Source: Branchipolynoe longqiensis (Eukaryota > Annelida > Polychaeta > Phyllodocida > Polynoidae). Taken from it: a stretch of DNA of 64,000 bases. The translations under genes were made by a program, and so were the position numbers. Below the pieces are notes generated by a model. The model had not been told where the DNA came from. It did not search any database and saw only the letters and a program-made list of their open reading frames with translations. The stretch covers positions 4,030,001 through 4,094,000 of the forward strand of contig CM059203.1 of the NCBI GenBank assembly GCA_030323885.1, written 5' to 3'. Of this stretch, positions 1-60,330 are shown in pieces; within the stretch, counting starts at the first letter, position 1; every line of letters begins with the position of its first letter.

Positions 1-395
1 CTGATATCAACACACTCCCCACGCCTACCTGTCTATGTGGTTACTTGCCTGAGAGGTCAGTGCAGACCACTACACTCGTCCCCCTGGAATTGTAAGTCTT
101 GTAATGCTTACAATTACATACATACAGGCAATGCACTAACACATACATACACAGGGTAGGTTCAACAACCATACAGCGCAAAGCTTGTACAGGATCCTGG
201 TCACGGCAACCAGTGTCATGGGGGTGATGAAAATGGGAAATACTGCGCCTAGAGCGGGACTCGAACCCACATCTCTTTGCATTCCGGGCCAGTGTGCTAA
301 CCATTACACCACCTAGGCTCCCTGATATCAACACACTCCCCACGCCTACCTGTCTATGTGGTTACTTGCCTGAGAGGTCAGTGCAGACCACTACA
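1..395 (-). mobile_element. TRIM-like retroelement with tRNA-bearing LTRs, cut by window edge
   Basis: This is a minus-strand copy of the element seen complete at 38093-38594 and 48333-48835. Seen here: the last 74 bp of one LTR (1-74), an internal spacer (75-213) and a complete 182-bp LTR (214-395). The LTR ends are TGT...ACA when read on either strand. The spacer, read on the minus strand, begins with CTGGTTGCCGTGACC, which is close to the complement of the 3' end of tRNA-His. It ends with a purine tract (AGGGGGACGAG) right at the next LTR. There is no protein-coding capacity, so the element must depend on enzymes supplied in trans. The left target-site duplication lies outside the window. 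Confidence 0.8.
246..318 (-). other. tRNA-like Pol III unit inside the LTR
   Basis: A 73-nt tRNA-like sequence. It has a 7-bp acceptor stem (GCCTAGG with TCTAGGC, one wobble pair), an A box TGGTGTAATGG and a B box GGTTCGAGTCC, both matching the Pol III consensus fully. The D arm and A box resemble tRNA-Gln. The anticodon stem does not pair, so it is unlikely to be a working tRNA. A short T run follows downstream and could end a small Pol III transcript. Confidence 0.75.
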
Positions 396-7354: not shown

Positions 7355-7695
7355 CTAGCAGATGGGATGGCCGAATGAGTTAGAGCGTCTGTCACCCGTG
7401 TTGGTAGATCGTGGGGTCATGGGTTCGAACCCTGGTCGAGTCAAACCAATGACTTAAAAATTTATACTTGTCACTTCCTAACCAGGCACTCGGCATTATT
7501 AGGACAGGGCAAGGACTGGTGTGCTCAGTGTCAGGATAATGTGACTGAGTGGGATACCAGGTCATGATGCTGGCAGCCTGGTTTCCCAGTGGGACAGCAC
7601 TATAAATTTGCCATGAGTGCGCACTGTTACAAGTCGGTACCCGTCCTGATATGACCTTATATGTTGCTGGGATGTAAAACAACAACAAACAAACA
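7355..7695 (+). mobile_element. SINE-A, full-length, reference copy
   Basis: A 341-bp SINE. Its tRNA-like head has A box TGGCCGAATGA and B box GGTTCGAACCC, followed by a body with conserved blocks GTGTCAGGATAATGTGACTG and CACTGTTACAAGTCGGTACC, and a tail of AACAACAAACAAAC. The 11-bp target-site duplication ATCTAATAGTC lies at 7344-7354 and 7696-7706. It does not encode protein. Confidence 0.9.
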
Positions 7696-7832
7696 ATCTA
7701 ATAGTCATTTAAATGCCCTCGTACCCATGAACTGGGCTCCCAGGTATGGGTTTAATAGCACCACTGCCTTGTGGTTACCATTCGTTTGGTAAAGGCTAAG
7801 GGCGTAAACCCTGAAATAAAATGGAGTGGAGC

Positions 7833-10219: not shown

Positions 10220-10310
10220 GGGCCTTACGGCGGCGAACATGCGCAGTGTGAGTGGCAAAGCGGGTAATGAACACGTGGGCGAGTAAGTGACTGGGGTTTC
10301 AGGTTCTAGC

Positions 10311-10620
10311 AACATCTGAGGTCATATCGGGCCGGGTAGCAAGCTCTGATGGTGCATGGTATTCCACTCGTGCTAGCTTCATAGTGTTGCCAGCACTGGG
10401 ATACCGTGCCTTCACTGACTGGCTTCCGATGTGGGTTTGTTTGTTGGGGTTTTATATACTGACAACATCTAATGTATCAGGATGGGTTCCAACTTGTAAC
10501 AGTGTGCACTCATGGCAACTTTATAGTGCTGCCCCACTGGGAGAACAGGCTGCTGGCACCATGACCCAATATCCCATTTAGTCACATTGTCCTGATGCAC
10601 TCTGATCGATACATCTAACC
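10311..10620 (-). mobile_element. Two partial SINE-A copies, minus strand
   Basis: About 10311-10410 and 10437-10620 both match the 3' half of SINE-A in reverse (AACATCT...ATATC...GGGT then ACTTGTAACAGTGTGCACTC). Heads are missing and no target duplication was found. Confidence 0.55.
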
Positions 10621-22770: not shown

Positions 22771-22827
22771 TACTAATTCAATAGGACCCACATTCCTCTG
22801 CGGATGTACCAAGGACTAGCCAGATGT

Positions 22828-23690
22828 CATGAGATTCCATGAGGCCAGTTCTGGGTCAAGCGTAGCCACACCTCTCCAGTATACACTGATGCAGTTCGAA
22901 AGACCAAAGACCGGGTTGGATGCCGTAGCTGCTGCGGCAGTCTGCCGACAGGAAAAATTTGGTGTACGTTTGCCCCGATCAGAGCTCGATTTTCACTGCA
23001 GAAGCCCCGAGCACGCCTTCTCGCATTGGAGTGTATCGAGGTATCCAACCACACTAACTATGTTATATACAGTGATTCGTATTCTCTGCCTCCTGGCTGT
23101 TGCTGGACTGAAAACGAATCACCCTATTCTAGCAACGGTCATTTATAAAATGAACCAACTGACAACGGATGAGTATGACATCCACCTGTGCTGGGTGCCT
23201 GGCCATGCCAGCATACAAGGAAACGAACGAGCTGATCGGGCTGCGAAGAAGGCCCTGAACTGTGATCTTGAACCGTGTCTGATCCCTCACTCTGATCTGA
23301 AACCACTAATAGCCACCCACATAAAATCCAAATGGCAACATGAGTGCGATGAAAACATTAATAAACTTAAAGAATTTGAACCATCTGTGGGAAAGCCACC
23401 ACAGACTCATGCGGGAGGTAGGCGGGACCAAGCGGTCCTTAGCCGCTGCCGTATTGGCCACTCGTGGCTTACACATGCTTTTCTGCTCAAGGGGGAACCT
23501 CCCCCTGAATGTATTGGGTGTCAGTCCCCGCTGACACTCAAACACATTTGACTAAGTTGCGTTGATTTTTTGGCCCTACACCAACAGTTCTACACTGCAG
23601 ACAGTATGCATGACCTTTTTACTAAGGTAAAACAGGAAAACATTTCAGCCTTTTTGAGGGCAGCTGGACTGTACCACCTCATATAGTTTA
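22828..23690 (+). pseudogene. RNase H domain of a Jockey/I-type LINE, frameshifted
   Basis: The translated blocks fit an RNase H fold with its catalytic positions: YTD (about 22879-22890), a glutamate in FTAEA-type context (about 23000), YSDS (about 23060-23075) and the downstream GNERAD motif with WVPGHASIQGNE before it. The RNase H domain degrades RNA in RNA-DNA hybrids during target-primed reverse transcription. The blocks lie in different frames. A one-base shift follows YSDSYS, an in-frame TGA follows LKHI (about 23549), and the C-terminal block continues to a TAG near 23688. The continuous 240-codon frame at 22829-23551 is therefore not an intact protein. The reverse transcriptase and endonuclease parts are absent, so this is a 5'-truncated copy. 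Confidence 0.8.
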
Positions 23691-32579: not shown

Positions 32580-35500
32580 GTCACTGGTGGAAATACTCTA
32601 ACCGATATCCATGCGACTGCAGCACGGACTAGTACATCTATACCCATATTTCGGTTAATTGGGCGATCCAAGATGTTTGTGACATGTCCGCTATTACTCT
32701 AACCGATATCCATGACTGACGTACATTCTCCACTATATTGGAGTTACTTGGGCAATCCAGATGTATCAACAGGTGTGCAATGTTAACTCCGCTAACCGAT
32801 CTCCATGACTGACGCACGATTTCTACCGCTACATTGGTTATTGGGCAAAGCCAAAATAGTGACGTCCCAGAAGGCAATACTCTAACCGATATCCATGACT
32901 GATCGGCACATTCTACTCTGATATTGGTTCTTGGGCAGGGCAAGCAGTGATGTGTCTCAGAATGCACATACTACTAACCGATATCCATGCCTGAGGACAC
33001 TCATTCAAACGCATGTTTTGTAGGTTATTGGGCAACTCCAAGATGTGGTCCACAGATGGCAATCTACTCCTAACCGATATCCAAGGACTGACGGGGGGGG
33101 GGGCAACATTCTACTCTATATTGGGTTATTGGGCAATCCAAGATGTGCTTGCACAGAAGGCAATACTCTACCGATACCCATGACTGGACTCACATTGTAA
33201 CACTATGATTGGTTATTAGGGCGCTCCAAGATGTGTTCACTGATGAGCAATCCTCTAACCGATAACCATGACTGACTCACACATGCTACACGCTATTTTG
33301 GTATTGGGCCAATCCATAGATGTGTTGACAGGTGGCGCACTACTCTATACCGCTCACCAGTGACTGGACTACACTTCTAACACTATTTGTGGTTTATTGG
33401 GCAATCGCAAGCTGTGTCACAGCTGGCAATCACTCTAACCGATATCCACGACTGTGACGCACATTCTATACTATATTTGGTTATTGGGCAATCTCAAGGA
33501 AATTTGTGTATCGACAAGTGGCAATACTCTAATTCCGATATACCATGGCTGATGCACATATACTATACTATATCGGTTTATGGGCAATCCAGATAGTGTC
33601 CACAGAAGGCAATACTCTAACCGATATCCCATGACTGACGCACATTCTACGCTATTATTGGTTATTGGGCAATCCAAGATGTGTACAGATGGCAATAACT
33701 CTAAACCGATATCCATGACTGACGCACATTCTACACTATATTGGTTATTGGGCAATCCAAGATGTGTCACAGATGGCAATACTCTAACCGATATCCATGA
33801 CTGACGCACATTCTATACTATATTGGTTATTGGGCGATCCAAGATGTGTCACAGATGGCAATACTCTAACCGATATCCATGACTGACGCACATTCTACAC
33901 TATTTTGGTTATTGGGCAATCCAAGCTGTGTCACAGATGGCAATATACTCTAACCGATATCCATGACTGACGTACATTCTACACTATTTTGGTTATTGGG
34001 CAATCCAAGATGTGTCACAGAAGGCAATACTCTAACCGATATCCATGACTGACGCACATTCTACGCTATATTGGTTATTGGGCAATCCAAGATGTGTCAC
34101 AGATGGCAATACTCTAACCGATATCCATGACTGACGCACATTCTACACTATATTGGTTATTGGGCGATCCAAGATGTGTCACAGATGGCAATACTCTAAC
34201 CGATATCCATGACTGACGCACATTCTACACTATATTTGGTTATTGGGCAATCCAAGATGTGTCACAGATGGCAATACTCTAACCGATATCCATGACTGAC
34301 GCACATTCTACACTATTTTGGTTATTGGGCAATCCAAGATGTGTCACAGATGGCAATACTCTAACCGATATCCATGACTGACGCACATTCTACACTATAT
34401 TGGTTATTGGGCAATCCAAGATGTGTCACAGATGGCAATACTCTAACCGATATCCATGACTGACGCACATTCTACACTATATTGGTTATTGGGCAATCCA
34501 AGATGTGTCACAGATGGCAATACTCTAACCGATATCTATGACTGACGCACATTCTACACTATATTGGTTATTGGGCAATCCAAGATGTGTCACAGATGGC
34601 AATACTCTAACCGATATCCATGACTGACGCACATTCTACACTATATTGGTTATTGGGCAATCCAAGATGTGTCACAGATGGCAATACTCTAACCGATATC
34701 CATGACTGACGCACATTCTACCCTATTTCGGTTATTGGGCAATCCAAGATGTGTCACAGATGGCAATACTCTAACCGATATCTATGACTGACGTACATTC
34801 TACACTATTTCGGTTATTGGGCAATCCAAGATGTGTCACAGATGGCAATACTCTAACCGATATCCATGACTGACGCACATTCTACACTATTTTGGTTATT
34901 GGGCAATCCAAGATGTGTCACAGATGGCAATACTCTAACCGATATCCATGACTGACGCACATTCTACACTATATTGGTTATTGGGCAATCCAAGATGTGT
35001 CACAGATGGCAATACTCTAACCGATATCCATGACTGACGCACATTCTACACTATTTTGGTTATTGGGCAATCCAAGATGTGTCACAGATGGCAATACTCT
35101 AACCGATATCCATGACTGACGCACATTCTACACTATTTCAGTTATTGGGCAATCCAAGATGTGTCACAGATGGCAATACTCTAACCGATATCCATGACTG
35201 ACGCACATTCTACGCTATATTGGTTATTGGGCAATCCAAGATGTGTCACAGATGGCAATACTCTAACCGATATCCATGACTGACGCACATTCTACACTAT
35301 ATGGTATTGGGCAATCTAATGTGTCACAGTGGCAAACTCACGATCAGACTGTGCAATTCTACAATTGGTAGGCATCGGGTCACATCAAATACTCTAACCG
35401 ATATCCATGACTGACGCACATTCTACCCTATTTTGGTTATTGGGCAATCCAAGCTGTGTCACAGATGGCAATACTCTAACCGATATCCATGACTGACACA

Positions 35501-36300
35501 CATTCTACACTATTTTGGTTATTGGGCAATCCAAGATGTATCACAGGTGGCAATACTCTAACCGATATCCATGACTGACACACATTCTACACTATTTTGG
35601 TTATTGGGCAATCCAAGATGTATCACAGGTGGCAATACTCTAACCGATATCCATGACTGACACAATCTACACTATTTTGGTTATTGGGCAATCCAAGATG
35701 TTCACAGATGGCAATACTCTAACCGATATCCATGACTGACACACATTCTACACTATTTTGGTTATTGGGCAATCCAAGATGTATCACAGGTGGCAATACT
35801 CTAACCGATATCCATGACTGACGCACATTCTACACTATTGTGATGGCCCACAGTCTTCCCACAGTGTCACACACTCACGGAAGAACGCCAAGATTCAGTT
35901 TCAGTACGCTTCAACCTGGTTTATTACAAAACCTCTCTGCTCTCCGTGGCGTCAACCGTCAATTGACCCGCCCCCTAACTCGCCAGGTCCCACGTCATCT
36001 CTATAGGTGGGTGGGGGGTGAGCTAGCCACATGCAGTAGAGGGCAGCCCGGTCGGGGCTCTGCCCAGTGGCTAGCCTGCCTCCACCTAGCGCAGTTCAGT
36101 GTAACTGCGTAGGTGCACGGCGTAGTGTCTGCCGCCACCGCGTGGTAGTGGGGATCATGTACAGACTACTACAATATTTTGGTTATTGGGCAATCCAAGA
36201 TGTGCCACAGGCGGCAATACTCTAACCGATATCCATGACTGACGCACATTCTACACTATTTCGGTTATTGGGGAATTGGAGATAATGTATCATTGGTGGA
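32580..36300. repeat. 82-bp satellite array
   Basis: About 40 head-to-tail units of 82 bp containing ACTCTAACCGATATCCATGA, CTGACGCACATTCTACACTA and GGTTATTGGGCAATCCAAGA. Copies from about 33.6 to 35.3 kb are nearly identical. The left ~1 kb is riddled with single-base insertions and deletions. A scrambled unit lies at 35300-35395, and an LTR-like insert interrupts the array at 35839-36174. The open frames do not persist across units. Confidence 0.95.
35839..36174 (-). mobile_element. Putative solo LTR inside the 82-bp satellite
   Basis: A 336-bp insert beginning TGTGATGG and ending ACTACTACA. On the minus strand it starts TGTAGTAGTCTG, the same 12 bases as the TRIM LTRs, and contains AATAAA (GTAATAAACC, about 35930). 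The satellite sequence CTAT/ATAT flanks it, close to a 4-bp duplication. It has no tRNA-like unit. Confidence 0.6.
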
Positions 36301-37713: not shown

Positions 37714-38169
37714 GAAAAAAAAAACAAAGAAAAAACAACTCCGGATCAAGGATCGGGGATCCAGCTTTTGGTTTTGAGCTTCCTTTTTTTGTAAATATTA
37801 TTGATTAGTGTGAGGCGGACTTCAAGAATCGATCGCAAGGACAGTCTGCATGTGGGTTGTAAGAGAGCTCTCTGTGAGAGAATGCGAAGCAGACAATAAA
37901 GGTAGGCGTACACTACATAACATTTCCTTGGCTTGACTTGGATGGAGGATGGAATGTACTATCCACTCCACCGTTCAGCCCAGCTCACAAACTATTGCGC
38001 AATAATTTGTGCATTACTGCTACAACGCTTGTAATCGGAAACGATTGCGCACACAATCAATTTTCTATGGGTAGACCTAGTTGCGAAACATGTGTAGTAG
38101 TCTGCACTGACCTCTCAGGCAAGTAACCACATAGACAGGTAAGCGTGGGTAGTGTGTTGATATCAGGGA

Positions 38170-38242
38170 GCCTAGGTGGTGTAATGGTTAGCACACTGGC
38201 CCGGAATGCAAAGAGATGTGGGTTCGAGTCCCGCTCTAGGCA
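38170..38242 (+). other. tRNA-like Pol III unit in the 5' LTR
   Basis: Acceptor stem GCCTAGG/TCTAGGC, A box TGGTGTAATGG, B box GGTTCGAGTCC and a five-pair T stem. The anticodon arm cannot fold normally. A CCCATTTTC stretch 17 nt downstream could terminate Pol III. Confidence 0.75.
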
Positions 38243-38489
38243 CAATATTTCCCATTTTCATCATCCCCACGACACTGGTGCCATGACCAGGATCCTGTAC
38301 AAGCTTTGCGCTGTATGGTTGTTGAACCTACCCTGTGTATGTATGTGTTAGTGCATTGCCTGTATGTATGTAATTGTAAGCGTTAAAAGACTTATAATTC
38401 CAGCGGGACGAGTGTAGTAGGCTGCACTGACCTCTCAGGCAAGTAACAACATAGACAGGTAGGCGTGGATAGTGTGTTGATCTCAGGGA

Positions 38490-38562
38490 GCCTAGGTGGT
38501 GTAATGGTTAGCACACTGGCCCGGAATGCAAAGAGATGTGGGTTCGAGTCCCGCTCTAGGCA
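38490..38562 (+). other. tRNA-like Pol III unit in the 3' LTR
   Basis: Identical over its 73 nt to the 5' LTR copy, as expected if reverse transcription copied both LTRs from one template. Confidence 0.75.
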
Positions 38563-38989
38563 CAATATTTCCCATTTTCATCATCCCCACGACACTTGCT
38601 TCGCATATGGCGGATTTAGGAAATGATTGTGGTTAGGCACAGTGACTAACTGAGAAGGTCACACCTCACAAAATATTGAATAATAATTTATGGCATTGCT
38701 GCTATGACAATGTAAACGGAAATGATTGCAAACACAACTAATTTTCTGCTGGTGGACCTAGTTGCGAACCATGCTTCGCATATGGCAGACTTCAGAGATG
38801 ATTGTGGTTAGGCGCACTGACTGACTGGGAGAGTCATGGTGCACCAGGGATGCGGTTCCATGACCCCAGATGCATTATGGGCGATTATGGACAATTATGG
38901 GGCGCTTAAATCCATGGGGTGATGATAGGTGGGTGGGTGGCAGAATATCTGCATTAACTATGAGTGTTAGCAGTGAGGGGTTGCAGCAG

Positions 38990-47940: not shown

Positions 47941-48364
47941 AAATATATATATATATGTAGGACATAAAACCCCAACAAGCAAACGACATCCTGACACTGA
48001 CTCAGCCCATCCTTCTCCCATCCCTAGTAATGCTACCTGCCAGGCAATATGTTTCTAATGCAGCATGTCATGGAATTATCTGAATGCAATATTTTACATT
48101 AGATAAAATACCACTTTGTGTCCGTCTATTCACCACCTCCACCACTTTTCGCGGTGTAAGCTGAAGCTGTGACCTGGTGTACTGGGTCAAAGCTTCAATC
48201 CTTCTACTGTGACCCGCGGAACTCGGAACATGCCTATTCATCGTCTCGTCTCAGTATCAGCGAATTTAAACCTAGAAATAGAATGAAACCAGAAACTCAA
48301 ATTGATCATTCATAGAGTGGAATATATAATATTGTCATGGGGGTGATGAAAATGGGAAATATTG

Positions 48365-48437
48365 CGCCTAGAGTGGGACTCGAACCCACATCTCTTTGCA
48401 TTCTGGTCCAGTGTGCTAACCATTACACCACCTAGGC
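48365..48437 (-). other. tRNA-like Pol III unit in the LTR
   Basis: Intact A and B boxes and acceptor stem, as at 38170. Confidence 0.7.
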
Positions 48438-48685
48438 TCCCTGCTATCACTACACTACCCACGCCTACCTGTCTATGTGGTTACTTTCCTGAGAGGTCAG
48501 TGCAGACTACTACACTCGTCCCCCTGGAATTGTAAGTCTTTTAATGCTTAGAATTACATACATACAGGCAATGCACTAACACATACATACACAGGATAGG
48601 TTCAACAACCATACAGCGCGTAGCTTGTAAAGGATCATCGTCACGGCAACCAGTGTCATGGGGGTGATGAAAATGAGAAATATTG

Positions 48686-48758
48686 CACCTAGAGTGGGAC
48701 TTGAACCTACATCTCTTTCCATTCCGGGCCAGTGTGCTAACCATTACACCAACTAGGC
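48686..48758 (-). other. tRNA-like Pol III unit in the second LTR, mutated
   Basis: Same layout but with changes in the acceptor (CTAGTTG), B box (GGTTCAAGTCC) and acceptor 3' strand. Confidence 0.65.
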
Positions 48759-48881
48759 TCCCTGCTATCACCAAACTACCCACGCCTAGCTGTCTATGTG
48801 GCTACTTGCCTTAGAGGTCAGTGCAGACTACTACAATATCTCTGCACTGGAGGAATAAAGTCTGACTTCCTTCAAACCTTA

Positions 48882-52852: not shown

Positions 52853-52935
52853 ACTTTACAACCCCAATGCCCTTAATAAGGCAATAGTCCATGGTGTGTC
52901 AAATCGTGTGTGTGGAACGTAACCTTGGACTAGGC
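52853..52935 (+). repeat. Direct repeat flanking the 124-bp satellite, left copy
   Basis: CTTTACAACCCCAATGCCC then TTAATAAGGCAATAG and GTCAAATCGTGTGTGTGGAA. It matches 58862-58940. Confidence 0.65.
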
Positions 52936-53180
52936 GCGGTGACTTATAAAATTGGTACTTGTCGCTTCTTAGCCTGGCCCTCGGCATTAATAGGATAGGG
53001 CAAGGACTGGTTAGCTCAGTGTCAGGATAATGTGACTGAATGGGATATCGTGTAATGGTGCCAGCGGCCTGATTTCCCAGTGGGACAACACTATAAAGTC
53101 GCCATGGGTGCGCACTGTCACAAGTTGGTACCGGCCCGGATATGACCTTAAATGTTGCTAGGCTGTAAACTTCCAACAAA
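52936..53180 (+). mobile_element. SINE-A, 5'-truncated
   Basis: Body from GGTGACTTATAAAATTGG to AAACTTCCAACAAACC, with all middle blocks present. Confidence 0.75.
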
Positions 53181-53740
53181 CCAACCCAATAGACTAGATC
53201 GCCATTCCAGCCGCGCGGTGCATTGTGGGATGCGTGGAAGAAAACCAAACCCCATGAAGCACATGGCTAATGCTAAGACTCATCTCAGCTCTTGTTTCAA
53301 ACATAGAATACCAACTAAAAAAATATATATATAATAAATTAAAATATTAATCTTTTATCTAACATTGTAATTACATCAACCTAATCAGCACATCTTATGC
53401 CATGTGCATTTAGATTTAGACAAATCTGGGCACTCGGACTAGTGTTAGAGCCATAGCCAGAGTCAGTTTTACTTATTTATTCATGTTTATATTTATATCC
53501 TATGGTTAATAACATCTGTAGTGCTAGGAAAAGGGTAGGGTTAATCAGGCATTGGTTAGATATTTCTTTGAAACAAGTTTTTGTTGACACATTTGACATT
53601 TTAATATTTAGAACAATAATTACTAATCAATGGTGATGTAAACACCAGCCTGTAAAGTGACTGAAATTGTATGTTTCTTAGCTCAAAATGCCTAATTATT
53701 GAGAGTTGTGTCTTAAACTGTTTTGTTTGATATATCTGAC
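53181..53740. other. AT-rich, no gene recognised
   Basis: AT-rich sequence leading into the satellite. No repeat family was recognised apart from short A and T runs. Confidence 0.4.
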
Positions 53741-53744
53741 TCCA

Positions 53745-56700
53745 GCCAGATTAGGGTCACTTACATGGTACGACACTACCCACACGTTCTTAGAGGACTC
53801 CATCCATATTAGGGTCACATACATGGTACGTCACTACACACACGTTCTTAGCAGACATGGGGACTCCATCCATATTAGGGTCACTTACATGGTACGACAC
53901 TACACACACGTTCTTAGAGGACTCCATCCAGATTAGGGTCACTTACATGGTACGTCACTACACACACGTTCTTAGAGGACTCCATCCATATTAGGGTCAC
54001 TTACATGGTACGTCACTACACACACGTTCTTAGAGGACTCCATCCAGATTAGGGTCACATACATGGTACGTCACTACACACACGTTCTTAGCAGACATGG
54101 GGACTCCATCCATATTAGGGTCACTTACATGGTACGTCACTACACACACGTTCTTAGCAGACATGGGGACTCCATCCATATTAGGGTCACTTACATGGTA
54201 CGACACTACACACACGTTCTTAGCAGACATGGGGACTCCATCCATATTAGGGTCACTTACATGGTACGACACTACACACACGTTCTTAGAGGACTCCATC
54301 CAGATTAGGGTCACTTACATGGTACGTCACTACACACACGTTCTTAGCAGACATGGGGACTCCATCCATATTAGGGTCACTTACATGGTACGACACTACA
54401 CACACGTTCTTAGCAGACATGGGGACTCCATCCATATTAGGGTCACTTACATGGTACGTCACTACACACACGTTCTTAGAGGACTCCATCCAGATTAGGG
54501 TCACATACATGGTACGTCACTACACACACGTTCTTAGCAGACATGGGGACTCCATCCATATTAGGGTCACTTACATGGTACGACACTACGCACACGTTCT
54601 TAGAGGACTCCATCCAGATTAGGGTCACATACATGGTACGTCACTACACACACGTTCTTAGCAGACATGGGGACTCCATCCATATTAGGGTCACTTACAT
54701 GGTACGACACTACACACACGTTCTTAGAGGACTCCATCCAGATTAGGGTCACATACATGGTACGTCACTACACACACGTTCTTAGCAGACATGGGGACTC
54801 CATCCATATTAGGGTCACTTACATGGTACGACACTACACACACGTTCTTAGAGGACTCCATCCAGATTAGGGTCACATACATGGTACGTCACTACACACA
54901 CGTTCTTAGCAGACATGGGGACTCCATCCATATTAGGGTCACTTACATGGTACGTCACTACACACACGTTCTTAGAGGACTCCATCCAGATTAGGGTCAC
55001 ATACATGGTACGTCACTACACACACGTTCTTAGCAGACATGGGGACTCCATCCATATTAGGGTCACTTACATGGTACGTCACTACACACACGTTCTTAGA
55101 GGACTCCATCCAGATTAGGGTCACATACATGGTACGTCACTACACACACGTTCTTAGAGGACTCCATCCAGATTAGGGTCACATACATGGTACGTCACTA
55201 CACACACGTTCTTAGCAGACATGGGGACTCCATCCATATTAGGGTCACTTACATGGTACGTCACTACACACACGTTCTTAGAGGACTCCATCCAGATTAG
55301 GGTCACATACATGGTACGTCACTACACACACGTTCTTAGCAGACATGGGGACTCCATCCATATTAGGGTCACTTACATGGTACGTCACTACACACACGTT
55401 CTTAGAGGACTCCATCCAGATTAGGGTCACATACATGGTACGTCACTACACACACGTTCTTAGCAGACATGGGGACTCCATCCATATTAGGGTCACTTAC
55501 ATGGTACGTCACTACACACACGTTCTTAGAGGACTCCATCCAGATTAGGGTCACATACATGGTACGTCACTACACACACGTTCTTAGCAGACATGGGGAC
55601 TCCATCCATATTAGGGTCACTTACATGGTACGTCACTACACACACGTTCTTAGAGGACTCCATCCAGATTAGGGTCACATACATGGTACGTCACTACACA
55701 CACGTTCTTAGCAGACATGGGGACTCCATCCATATTAGGGTCACTTACATGGTACGTCACTACACACACGTTCTTAGAGGACTCCATCCAGATTAGGGTC
55801 ACATACATGGTACGTCACTACACACACGTTCTTAGCAGACATGGGGACTCCATCCATATTAGGGTCACTTACATGGTACGTCACTACACACACGTTCTTA
55901 GAGGACTCCATCCAGATTAGGGTCACATACATGGTACGTCACTACACACACGTTCTTAGCAGACATGGGGACTCCATCCATATTAGGGTCACTTACATGG
56001 TACGTCACTACACACACGTTCTTAGAGGACTCCATCCAGATTAGGGTCACATACATGGTACGTCACTACACACACGTTCTTAGCAGACATGGGGACTCCA
56101 TCCATATTAGGGTCACTTACATGGTACGTCACTACACACACGTTCTTAGAGGACTCCATCCAGATTAGGGTCACTTACATGGTACGTCACTACACACACG
56201 TTCTTAGCAGACATGGGGACTCCATCCATATTAGGGTCACTTACATGGTACGTCACTACACACACGTTCTTAGAGGACTCCATCCAGATTAGGGTCACAT
56301 ACATGGTACGTCACTACACACACGTTCTTAGCAGACATGGGGACTCCATCCATATTAGGGTCACTTACATGGTACGTCACTACACACACGTTCTTAGAGG
56401 ACTCCATCCAGATTAGGGTCACATACATGGTACGTCACTACACACACGTTCTTAGCAGACATGGGGACTCCATCCATATTAGGGTCACTTACATGGTACG
56501 TCACTACACACACGTTCTTAGAGGACTCCATCCAGATTAGGGTCACATACATGGTACGTCACTACACACACGTTCTTAGCAGACATGGGGACTCCATCCA
56601 TATTAGGGTCACTTACATGGTACGTCACTACACACACGTTCTTAGAGGACTCCATCCAGATTAGGGTCACATACATGGTACGTCACTACACACACGTTCT

Positions 56701-58465
56701 TAGCAGACATGGGGACTCCATCCATATTAGGGTCACTTACATGGTACGTCACTACACACACGTTCTTAGAGGACTCCATCCAGATTAGGGTCACATACAT
56801 GGTACGTCACTACACACACGTTCTTAGCAGACATGGGGACTCCATCCATATTAGGGTCACTTACATGGTACGTCACTACACACACGTTCTTAGAGGACTC
56901 CATCCAGATTAGGGTCACATACATGGTACGTCACTACACACACGTTCTTAGCAGACATGGGGACTCCATCCATATTAGGGTCACTTACATGGTACGACAC
57001 TACACACACGTTCTTAGAGGACTCCATCCATATTAGGGTCACATACATGGTACGTCACTACACACACGTTCTTAGAGGACTCCATCCATATTAGGGTCAC
57101 TTACATGGTACGTCACTACCCACACGTTCTTAGAGGACTCCATCCAGATTAGGGTCACTTACATGGTACGTCACTACACACACGTTCTTAGCAGACATGG
57201 GGACTCCATCCATATTAGGGTCACTTACATGGTACGTCACTACACACACGTTCTTAGAGGACTCCATCCAGATTAGGGTCACATACATGGTACGTCACTA
57301 CACACACGTTCTTAGCAGACATGGGGACTCCATCCATATTAGGGTCACTTACATGGTACGTCACTACACACACGTTCTTAGAGGACTCCATCCAGATTAG
57401 GGTCACATACATGGTACGTCACTACACACACGTTCTTAGCAGACATGGGGACTCCATCCATATTAGGGTCACTTACATGGTACGTCACTACACACACGTT
57501 CTTAGAGGACTCCATCCAGATTAGGGTCACATACATGGTACGTCACTACACACACGTTCTTAGCAGACATGGGGACTCCATCCATATTAGGGTCACTTAC
57601 ATGGTACGTCACTACACACACGTTCTTAGAGGACTCCATCCAGATTAGGGTCACATACATGGTACGTCACTACACACACGTTCTTAGCAGACATGGGGAC
57701 TCCATCCATATTAGGGTCACTTACATGGTACGTCACTACCCACACGTTCTTAGAGGACTCCATCCAGATTAGGGTCACATACATGGTACGTCACTACACA
57801 CACGTTCTTAGCAGACATGGGGACTCCATCCATATTAGGGTCACTTACATGGTACGTCACTACACACACGTTCTTAGAGGACTCCATCCAGATTAGGGTC
57901 ACATACATGGTACGTCACTACACACACGTTCTTAGCAGATGGGACTCCATCCATATTAGGGTCACTTACATGGTACGTCACTACACACACGTTCTTAGCA
58001 GACATGGGACTCCATCCATATTAGGGTCACTTACATGGTACGTCACTACACACACGTTCTTAGAGGACTCCATCCAGATTAGGGTCACATACATGGTACG
58101 TCACTACACACACGTTCTTAGCAGACATGGGGACTCCATCCATATTAGGGTCACTTACATGGTACGTCACTACACACACGTTCTTAGAGGACTCCATCCA
58201 GATTAGGGTCACATACATGGTACGTCACTACACACACGTTCTTAGCAGACATGGGGACTCCATCCATATTAGGGTCACTTACATGGTACGTCACTACACA
58301 CACGTTCTTAGAGGACTCCATCCAGATTAGGGTCACATACATGGTACGTCACTACACACACGTTCTTAGCAGACATGGGGACTCCATCCATATTAGGGTC
58401 ACTTACATGGTACGTCACTACACACACGTTCTTAGAGGACATGAGGACTCCATCCATATTAGGTA
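53745..58465. repeat. 124-bp higher-order satellite (58 + 66 bp half-units)
   Basis: Half-unit A (58 bp) carries GAGGACTCCATCCAGATTAG. Half-unit B (66 bp) carries GCAGACATGGGGACTCCATC and TATTAGGGTCACTTACATGG. Both share GGTACGTCACTACACACACG. The A-B alternation is almost perfect over most of the array, with A-A or B-B irregularities near both ends and at 55080-55200 and 57000-57170. 124 is not a multiple of 3, so the 67-codon open frames found in every unit do not join into a protein. Confidence 0.95.
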
Positions 58466-58940: not shown

Positions 58941-59062
58941 CTAGGGTTTGTCTCCTCGACCATTCTCTGCCTTCTGAATTACTCTGCCCTTCAGGCTATC
59001 TTAACCCTGCAGGCTGCTGGGCAACCTCCCAAGGGCCTCGCTACAATGGACATTGTCCCACT

Positions 59063-60140
59063 GATCCATACAAGGGGCGTGGCACCAACAATCCACACAC
59101 AAAAACCACCATCTTATTTTGATTTCTTTGGTACATTAGTTGATTAAGCAAGGGAAATTCCAATAGGGGACAGTTGGTCTTCCTCATTTCTACTGCACCT
59201 TCACTCAGTCACATTATCCTGTCACTGAGCAAATCAGTCATTGCGCTATCCTGATCCATACAGGGGGCGTGGCACAAAAAATTCACACACAAAAGCGCCA
59301 TTTTATTTTATTTGTTTGGTACATTAGTTGATTAAGCAAGGGAAATTCCAATCGCGGACAGTTGGTCTTCCTCATTTCTACTGCACCTTCACTCAGTCAC
59401 ATTATCCTGTCACACTGAGGCAAATCAGTCCATTGCCGCTATCCTGATCCATATACGGGGGCGTGGCACAAAACATCCACACACAAAAACCACCATTTAT
59501 TTGCTTGTTTGGTACATTAGTTGATTAAGCAAGGGAAATTCCAATCGCGGACAGTTGGTCTTCCTCATTTCCACTGCACCTTCACTCAGTCACATTATCC
59601 TGTCACTGAGCCAACCAGTCATTGCGCTATCCTGATCCATACAGGGGGCGAGGCACAAAAAATCCACACATAAAACCACCATTTTATTTGATTTGTTTGG
59701 TACATTAGTTGATTAAGCAAGGGAAATTCCAATCGCGGACAGTTGGTCTTCCTCATTTCCACTGCACCTTCACTCAGTCACATTATCCTGTCACTGAGCC
59801 AACCAGTCATTGCGCTATCCTGATCCATACAGGGGGCGAGGCACAAAAAATCCACACATAAAACCACCATTTTATTTGATTTGTTTGGTACATTAGTTGA
59901 TTAAGCAAGGGAAATTCCAATCGGGGACAGTTGGTCTTCCTCATTTCTACTGCACCTTCACTCAGTCACATTATCCTGTCACTGAGCAAATCAGTCATTG
60001 CGCTATCCTGATCCATATACGGGGGCGTGGCACAAAACATCCACACACAAAAACCACCATTTTATTTGATTTGTTTGGTACATTAGTTGATTAAGCAAGG
60101 GAAATTCCAATCGGGGACAGTTGGTCTTCCTCATTTCCAC
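59063..60140. repeat. 188-bp tandem repeat derived partly from SINE-A
   Basis: Units start near 59063, 59253, 59446, 59634, 59822 and 60010. Each has GATCCATACAGGGGGCGTGG, TTGATTAAGCAAGGGAAATT and CACTCAGTCACATTATCCTG. The last block is reverse SINE-A sequence and runs straight into a SINE-A copy at 60140. The third unit has several single-base insertions. Confidence 0.85.
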
Positions 60141-60330
60141 TGCACCATCACTCAGTCACATTATCCTGACACTGAGCCAACCAGTCCTTGTGGTTTCCTA
60201 TTAATGCCGAGCGCCAGGCTAGGTAGCGACAAGTATACATTTTGGTTTGATTTGGCCAGGGTTCGAATCGCACCACCTACTTAAATGGGAAGCGGACGCT
60301 CAACTCATTCGGCTGTCGCGCCTTCGAAGT
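60140..60330 (-). mobile_element. SINE-A, 3'-truncated, minus strand
   Basis: Middle block to tRNA-like head (GGTTCGAATCG, CTCATTCGGC) in reverse. Its 3' part has been replaced by the tandem repeat. Confidence 0.7.

Follow-up and report, generated by a model that had tools for sequence, protein, structure and literature searches.

A 64,000-nucleotide stretch of contig CM059203.1 from the polynoid annelid Branchipolynoe longqiensis (assembly GCA_030323885.1, positions 4,030,001 to 4,094,000; hereafter the window) carries three copies of a compact mobile element. This element is best explained as a terminal-repeat retrotransposon in miniature (TRIM) of the Helenus type, a group of TRIMs whose long terminal repeats (LTRs) contain tRNA-derived sequence, which would be transcribed by RNA polymerase III (Pol III) from within its own LTR. 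We give this reading a probability of about 0.75, because it includes the Pol III step, which is denied by an unlikely rival explanation discussed below; with that step set aside, we are nearly certain of the TRIM class and the Helenus anatomy. The TRIM assignment is supported by the LTRs, a primer-binding site (PBS), 4-bp target duplications, an empty site and sequence variants that pair by element.

Alignment placed the copies at positions 1-395 (minus strand; copy 1), 38093-38594 (plus strand; the 38-kb copy) and 48333-48835 (minus strand; the 48-kb copy). Each is built from two 182-bp direct repeats around a middle of 138 or 139 bp, and the repeats begin and end exactly with TGT...ACA; the coordinates, layout and ends claimed in the first-pass annotation thus all proved exact. 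The full elements measure 502 and 503 bp, below the TRIM limit of 1000 bp, and appear too small to encode retroelement proteins (two of the copies are crossed by frames, of 106 and 86 codons from stop to stop). Copy 1 runs off the edge of the window, so that its second repeat is represented by 74 bases. With the element as query, a BLAST search of the window (E up to 0.01) returned only these three copies, with no solo repeat and no array; predominance of tandem arrays had been named in advance as fatal to a retrotransposon origin. An exact element pattern had 0 matches in viral contigs, and another exact pattern had 0 in prokaryote genome contigs. The parts of the copies, as delimited by alignment, are as follows.

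38093..38274, plus strand: 5' LTR of the 38-kb copy, 182 bp, TGT...ACA
38413..38594, plus strand: 3' LTR of the 38-kb copy; 177/182 positions agree with the 5' LTR
48654..48835, minus strand: 5' LTR of the 48-kb copy
48515..48653, minus strand: middle part of the 48-kb copy, containing the PBS (TGGTTGCCGTGAC, located by PBS scoring) and purine tract
48333..48514, minus strand: 3' LTR of the 48-kb copy; 168/182 positions agree with the 5' LTR
1..395, minus strand: copy 1, truncated by the window edge; 5' LTR 214-395, internal region 75-213, 3' LTR 1-74 (its first 74 bases)

The distribution of variants among the repeats distinguishes an LTR element from a pair of fused monomers. Since both LTRs of a retroelement are copied from one RNA template, variants are expected to pair by element. 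The five complete LTRs vary at 28 sites. Six of these are common to both LTRs of one element only and 22 occur as singletons; no site sets left repeats apart from right ones. In copy 1, the remaining part of the 3' LTR equals the 5' LTR at all 74 bases. The six element-paired sites and the lack of any side-paired site therefore indicate a TRIM-type LTR retroelement rather than a dimeric short interspersed element (SINE).

Target duplications could be read at two of the three copies, those with both ends within the window, and 4-bp duplications were present at both. The 48-kb copy has the exact ATAT/ATAT duplication reported in the first-pass annotation, and the 38-kb copy, for which that annotation named no duplication, is flanked by CATG and CTTG, with one mismatch. 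For comparison, random pairs of window 4-mers were identical in 95 of 20,000 draws, and 1,072 of 20,000 matched at three or more bases. Moreover, a nearby paralogous unit represents the empty site of the 38-kb insertion: it has a single CATG and matches the joined flanks at 131 of 164 aligned positions. Filled and empty sites are two diverged copies (~79%) of a repeat unit, at 37981-38092 and 38662-38773, one of which received the element.

38089..38092, plus strand: left target duplication of the 38-kb copy, CATG
38595..38598, plus strand: right target duplication of the 38-kb copy, CTTG (one mismatch)
38674..38836, plus strand: paralogous flank without the element, single CATG, 131/164 identical to the joined flanks
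48329..48332, minus strand: target duplication of the 48-kb copy, ATAT
48836..48839, minus strand: target duplication of the 48-kb copy, ATAT

The PBS starts one base past the end of the 5' LTR. It had been described as close to the complement of tRNA-His, and in the 38-kb copy 15 of 18 bases match the complement of the 3' end of human tRNA-His; the PBSs of copy 1 and the 48-kb copy each contain one inserted T. We scored the sites against ten human tRNAs (printed in PMC12217144), and His was the best fit for all three copies, with Glu second. Among 15,000 sampled stretches of the window, a sample that still includes the elements themselves, 3 reached the His score of the 38-kb copy, 3 that of copy 1 and 9 that of the 48-kb copy. 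A candidate polypurine tract adjoins the 3' LTR, AGCGGGACGAG in the 38-kb copy and AGGGGGACGAG in the other two; the tract expected from the first-pass annotation is thus present, in an imperfect form interrupted by C.

38276..38293, plus strand: PBS of the 38-kb copy, 15/18 matches to tRNA-His (human, complement of the 3' end)
38402..38412, plus strand: purine-rich tract AGCGGGACGAG, interrupted by C, before the 3' LTR

Each complete LTR also contains a 73-nucleotide tRNA-like unit. The Rfam tRNA model RF00005 has five matches in the window, all inside these LTRs, and all five complete LTRs (36.3-48.4 bits) exceed the gathering score of 29, which bears out the earlier statement that every LTR carries such a unit. 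ARAGORN calls four of the five units, three times as tRNA-Ser(GGA) and once as undetermined. The A-box stretch TGGTGTAATGG is identical in 5/5 complete LTRs and the B box GGTTCGAGTCC in 4/5, the 5' LTR of the 48-kb copy having GGTTCAAGTCC instead, so that the 'perfect A and B boxes' first attributed to each LTR hold for the A-box stretch throughout and for the B box in all LTRs but one. In the 38-kb unit, the acceptor stem is paired at 7/7 positions (one G-U), as had been claimed, the D stem at 4/4 and the T stem at 5/5. The anticodon stem of this unit is poor, with 3/5 pairs in the best of 12 registers. When the RNAs of the five units were folded, the cloverleaf was never the minimum (z-scores of -1.21, -1.21, -2.76, 0.12 and -1.29). 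Compared with ten tRNAs, the 38-kb unit resembles Arg and Gln equally (47 identities each), and the copy 1 unit favors Arg by 48 to 47. Because the anticodon stem is poor, the unit is unlikely to be a working tRNA: as judged from its sequence, it appears to keep the parts of a Pol III promoter and to have lost parts of a functional tRNA.

38170..38242, plus strand: tRNA-like unit, 5' LTR of the 38-kb copy (Rfam RF00005, 48.4 bits; ARAGORN)
38177-38187 and 38221-38231, plus strand: A-box stretch and B box of that unit (box positions)
38490..38562, plus strand: tRNA-like unit, 3' LTR of the 38-kb copy (Rfam, ARAGORN)
48686..48758, minus strand: tRNA-like unit in a decayed state, with 36.3 bits and one change in the B box, 5' LTR of the 48-kb copy
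48365..48437, minus strand: tRNA-like unit, 3' LTR of the 48-kb copy (Rfam)
246-318, minus strand: tRNA-like unit, 5' LTR of copy 1 (Rfam)

An animal element of this design had been presented as an undescribed, convergent counterpart of plant Cassandra. That claim does not stand, as TRIMs with tRNA-derived LTR sequence were named 'Helenus' by Kojima in 2024 (PMC10886601) from fungi, one plant and six animal phyla. According to that paper, animal Helenus elements have 4-bp target duplications, tRNA-His is among the primers of bivalve and vertebrate families, Gypsy elements are proposed as helpers in animals, and the sequence around the A and B boxes is conserved across families. Most families are judged incapable of forming a functional tRNA, and Helenus inflates tRNA gene predictions (its Table 2). 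Kojima likens Helenus to Cassandra, groups Helenus, Ajax and Cassandra as TRIMp3, and regards the Pol III function of Helenus as unproven (PMC10886601). The window element agrees with Helenus, as judged by the published description, in its tRNA-derived LTR sequence, 4-bp duplications, kept boxes and best-fitting tRNA-His primer; none of the Helenus features tested here failed. Among the 20 matches listed of 1,126 in literature from 2023 on, the name 'Helenus' occurred only in Kojima's paper, as did 'TRIMp3' in this meaning among four texts containing those letters. The window element is thus a further member of a described group, not a new kind, and comes with clean evidence of insertion within the window.

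Other TRIMs share parts of this design. Cassandra (PMC7215508) likewise has the Pol III promoter of a small-RNA gene in its LTR; however, it is a plant element and its promoter derives from 5S rRNA, whereas the unit in the window element is tRNA-like. Ajax, a nemertean TRIM, also comes from an animal and carries a promoter of Pol III type in its LTR, but differs in its partial 5S rRNA sequence, 5-bp duplications and tRNA-Leu primer (PMC10886601). PbTRIM of the harvester ant (PMC3532108) is alike in its size of 480-781 bp, its LTRs of 152-184 bp and its 4-bp duplications, of which ATAT is the commonest, but uses a tRNA-Leu primer, and the available text mentions no tRNA-like unit in its LTRs. 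biv-TRIM of bivalves (PMC6934838) is also an animal TRIM with two terminal repeats; it has no clear PBS and occurs in tandem arrays, unlike the window element, which forms none.

An internal Pol III start in the LTR is plausible from the sequence. A single TTTT lies at LTR positions 163-166 in all five complete LTRs, and none occurs elsewhere on the sense strand of the copies. On the same strand, AATAAA is found in none of the three copies and TATAA or TATATA in no LTR; a single TATAA lies between the LTRs of the 38-kb copy. The two TTTT runs of this copy are candidate Pol III stops, a role assigned by inference.

38255..38258, plus strand: first TTTT of the 38-kb copy, in the 5' LTR (candidate Pol III stop)
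38575..38578, plus strand: second TTTT of the 38-kb copy, in the 3' LTR (candidate Pol III stop, where the full-length RNA would end)

We propose that Pol III would start near the tRNA-like unit of the 5' LTR, at about LTR position 78, with the unit acting as a promoter and not as a tRNA. Frequent stops at the TTTT of the same LTR would yield an RNA of ~89 nucleotides, and occasional read-through to the TTTT of the 3' LTR would yield one of ~409-410 nucleotides. The LTR would then be divided into U3 (~1-77), R (~78-166) and U5 (167-182), and because of this division the RNA ends would be repeated, as template switching needs. A tRNA, with His as the best fit, would prime the first strand, and reverse transcriptase and integrase would be supplied in trans by an autonomous element, probably of the Gypsy type, as Kojima proposes for animals. 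The stop in the 5' LTR would have to be leaky for full-length RNA to be made. Termination by Pol III may be leaky.

Several results weigh against this reading or parts of it. The absence of TTTT outside the terminator positions is expected by chance (1,425 and 1,395 of 2,000 shuffles have none), and we accordingly rejected a depletion of TTTT from the transcript body; the TTTT of the 5' LTR could, moreover, truncate most Pol III transcripts. The tRNA-like unit is not clearly less variable among copies than the rest of the LTR (9/73 variable sites versus 15/77 upstream and 4/32 downstream), a comparison that led us to reject selection on the unit for lack of a clear signal. As ARAGORN accepts four of the five units as tRNA genes, the loss of tRNA function is uncertain. 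On the primer side, two of the copies carry the inserted T, the comparison covered just ten human tRNAs, and Glu scores nearly as well as His (11 versus 12 in two copies and 8 versus 10 in the third); with the best of all ten tRNAs taken for each stretch, 4 (38-kb copy), 4 (copy 1) and 27 (48-kb copy) of the 15,000 stretches equal the PBS. One of the two target duplications, CATG/CTTG, is imperfect, and no autonomous partner was seen in a Pfam scan of 18 reading frames of the window, a result limited by the small size of the scan.

The most serious alternative, which we consider unlikely, is a TRIM that relies on RNA polymerase II for transcription and whose tRNA-like unit rides along as a passive passenger, such as an old SINE insertion in an ancestral LTR. 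It would fit the lack of detectable extra conservation of the unit among the copies, and PbTRIM, also an animal TRIM, is not described with such a unit in the available text (PMC3532108). Against it stands that the A-box stretch is kept in 5/5 and the B box in 4/5 complete LTRs while the anticodon stem is poor; the lack of AATAAA from the sense strand and of TATAA or TATATA from the LTRs and the conservation of the box regions across Helenus families reported by Kojima (PMC10886601) also argue against it.

Two further explanations would deny that the element is an LTR retroelement at all. A dimeric tRNA-derived SINE, with two tRNA-like monomers joined by a linker and moved by a long interspersed element (LINE) through target-primed reverse transcription, could account for the A and B boxes of the units; dimeric tRNA SINEs exist, and the window holds a LINE-like RNase H reading frame. 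Nonetheless, the repeats reach well past the tRNA-like unit; their ends are TGT...ACA, and neither an A-rich nor a simple-repeat tail is present. Behind the first repeat lies a site complementary to a tRNA, and left and right repeats are separated at 0/28 variable sites. The duplications are 4 bp, and those of SINEs are usually longer. The ends, the duplications and the variant pairing led us to reject this highly improbable origin. A local duplication or assembly product, in which a tRNA gene region was copied in tandem or as a segment and is not mobile, would suit a window rich in tandem repeats, but three dispersed copies in both orientations, the lack of an array, the 4-bp duplications and the empty site speak against it; we rejected it on the strength of the empty site and the dispersed copies and regard it as next to impossible.

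A Helenus-type TRIM is of interest as a case of an LTR element expected to run on Pol III. With their empty site and one candidate terminator in each LTR, the copies here allow the concrete question whether Pol III passes the stop of the 5' LTR often enough to provide full-length template; beyond the terminator question, the window element adds one more family to the described group. Tentatively, and with more doubt than belief, we suggest a broader picture: a Helenus family in an animal lineage beyond the published hosts, dense in the genome (three copies in 64 kb), with one terminator per LTR defining an R of ~89 nucleotides, an abundant short tRNA-like RNA beside a rarer full-length RNA, and retrotransposition tied to the leaky stop in the 5' LTR.

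The rest of the window contains other repeats. A reading frame with an RNase H domain at 22820-23551 probably belongs to a LINE-like retrotransposon; its closest database protein is 91% identical over 55% of the query and lies on a 1,148-base contig. In the Pfam scan, RNase H was the one match above the curated cut-off, and one weak match fell below it. Of the 67 and 39 proteins that matched two reading frames of the window in protein searches, one is named ('hypothetical protein'). The window is rich in minisatellites, with long tandem arrays at 33106-35839, 53738-58463 and 59061-60190 made of units of 82, 124 and 188 bp. Reading-frame fragments at 52859-53266 (minus strand), 7395-7697 (minus strand) and 10291-10578 (plus strand) look similar by eye and are probably another dispersed repeat; the protein search with the first of them found 39 relatives, all on contigs of <2,000 bases.
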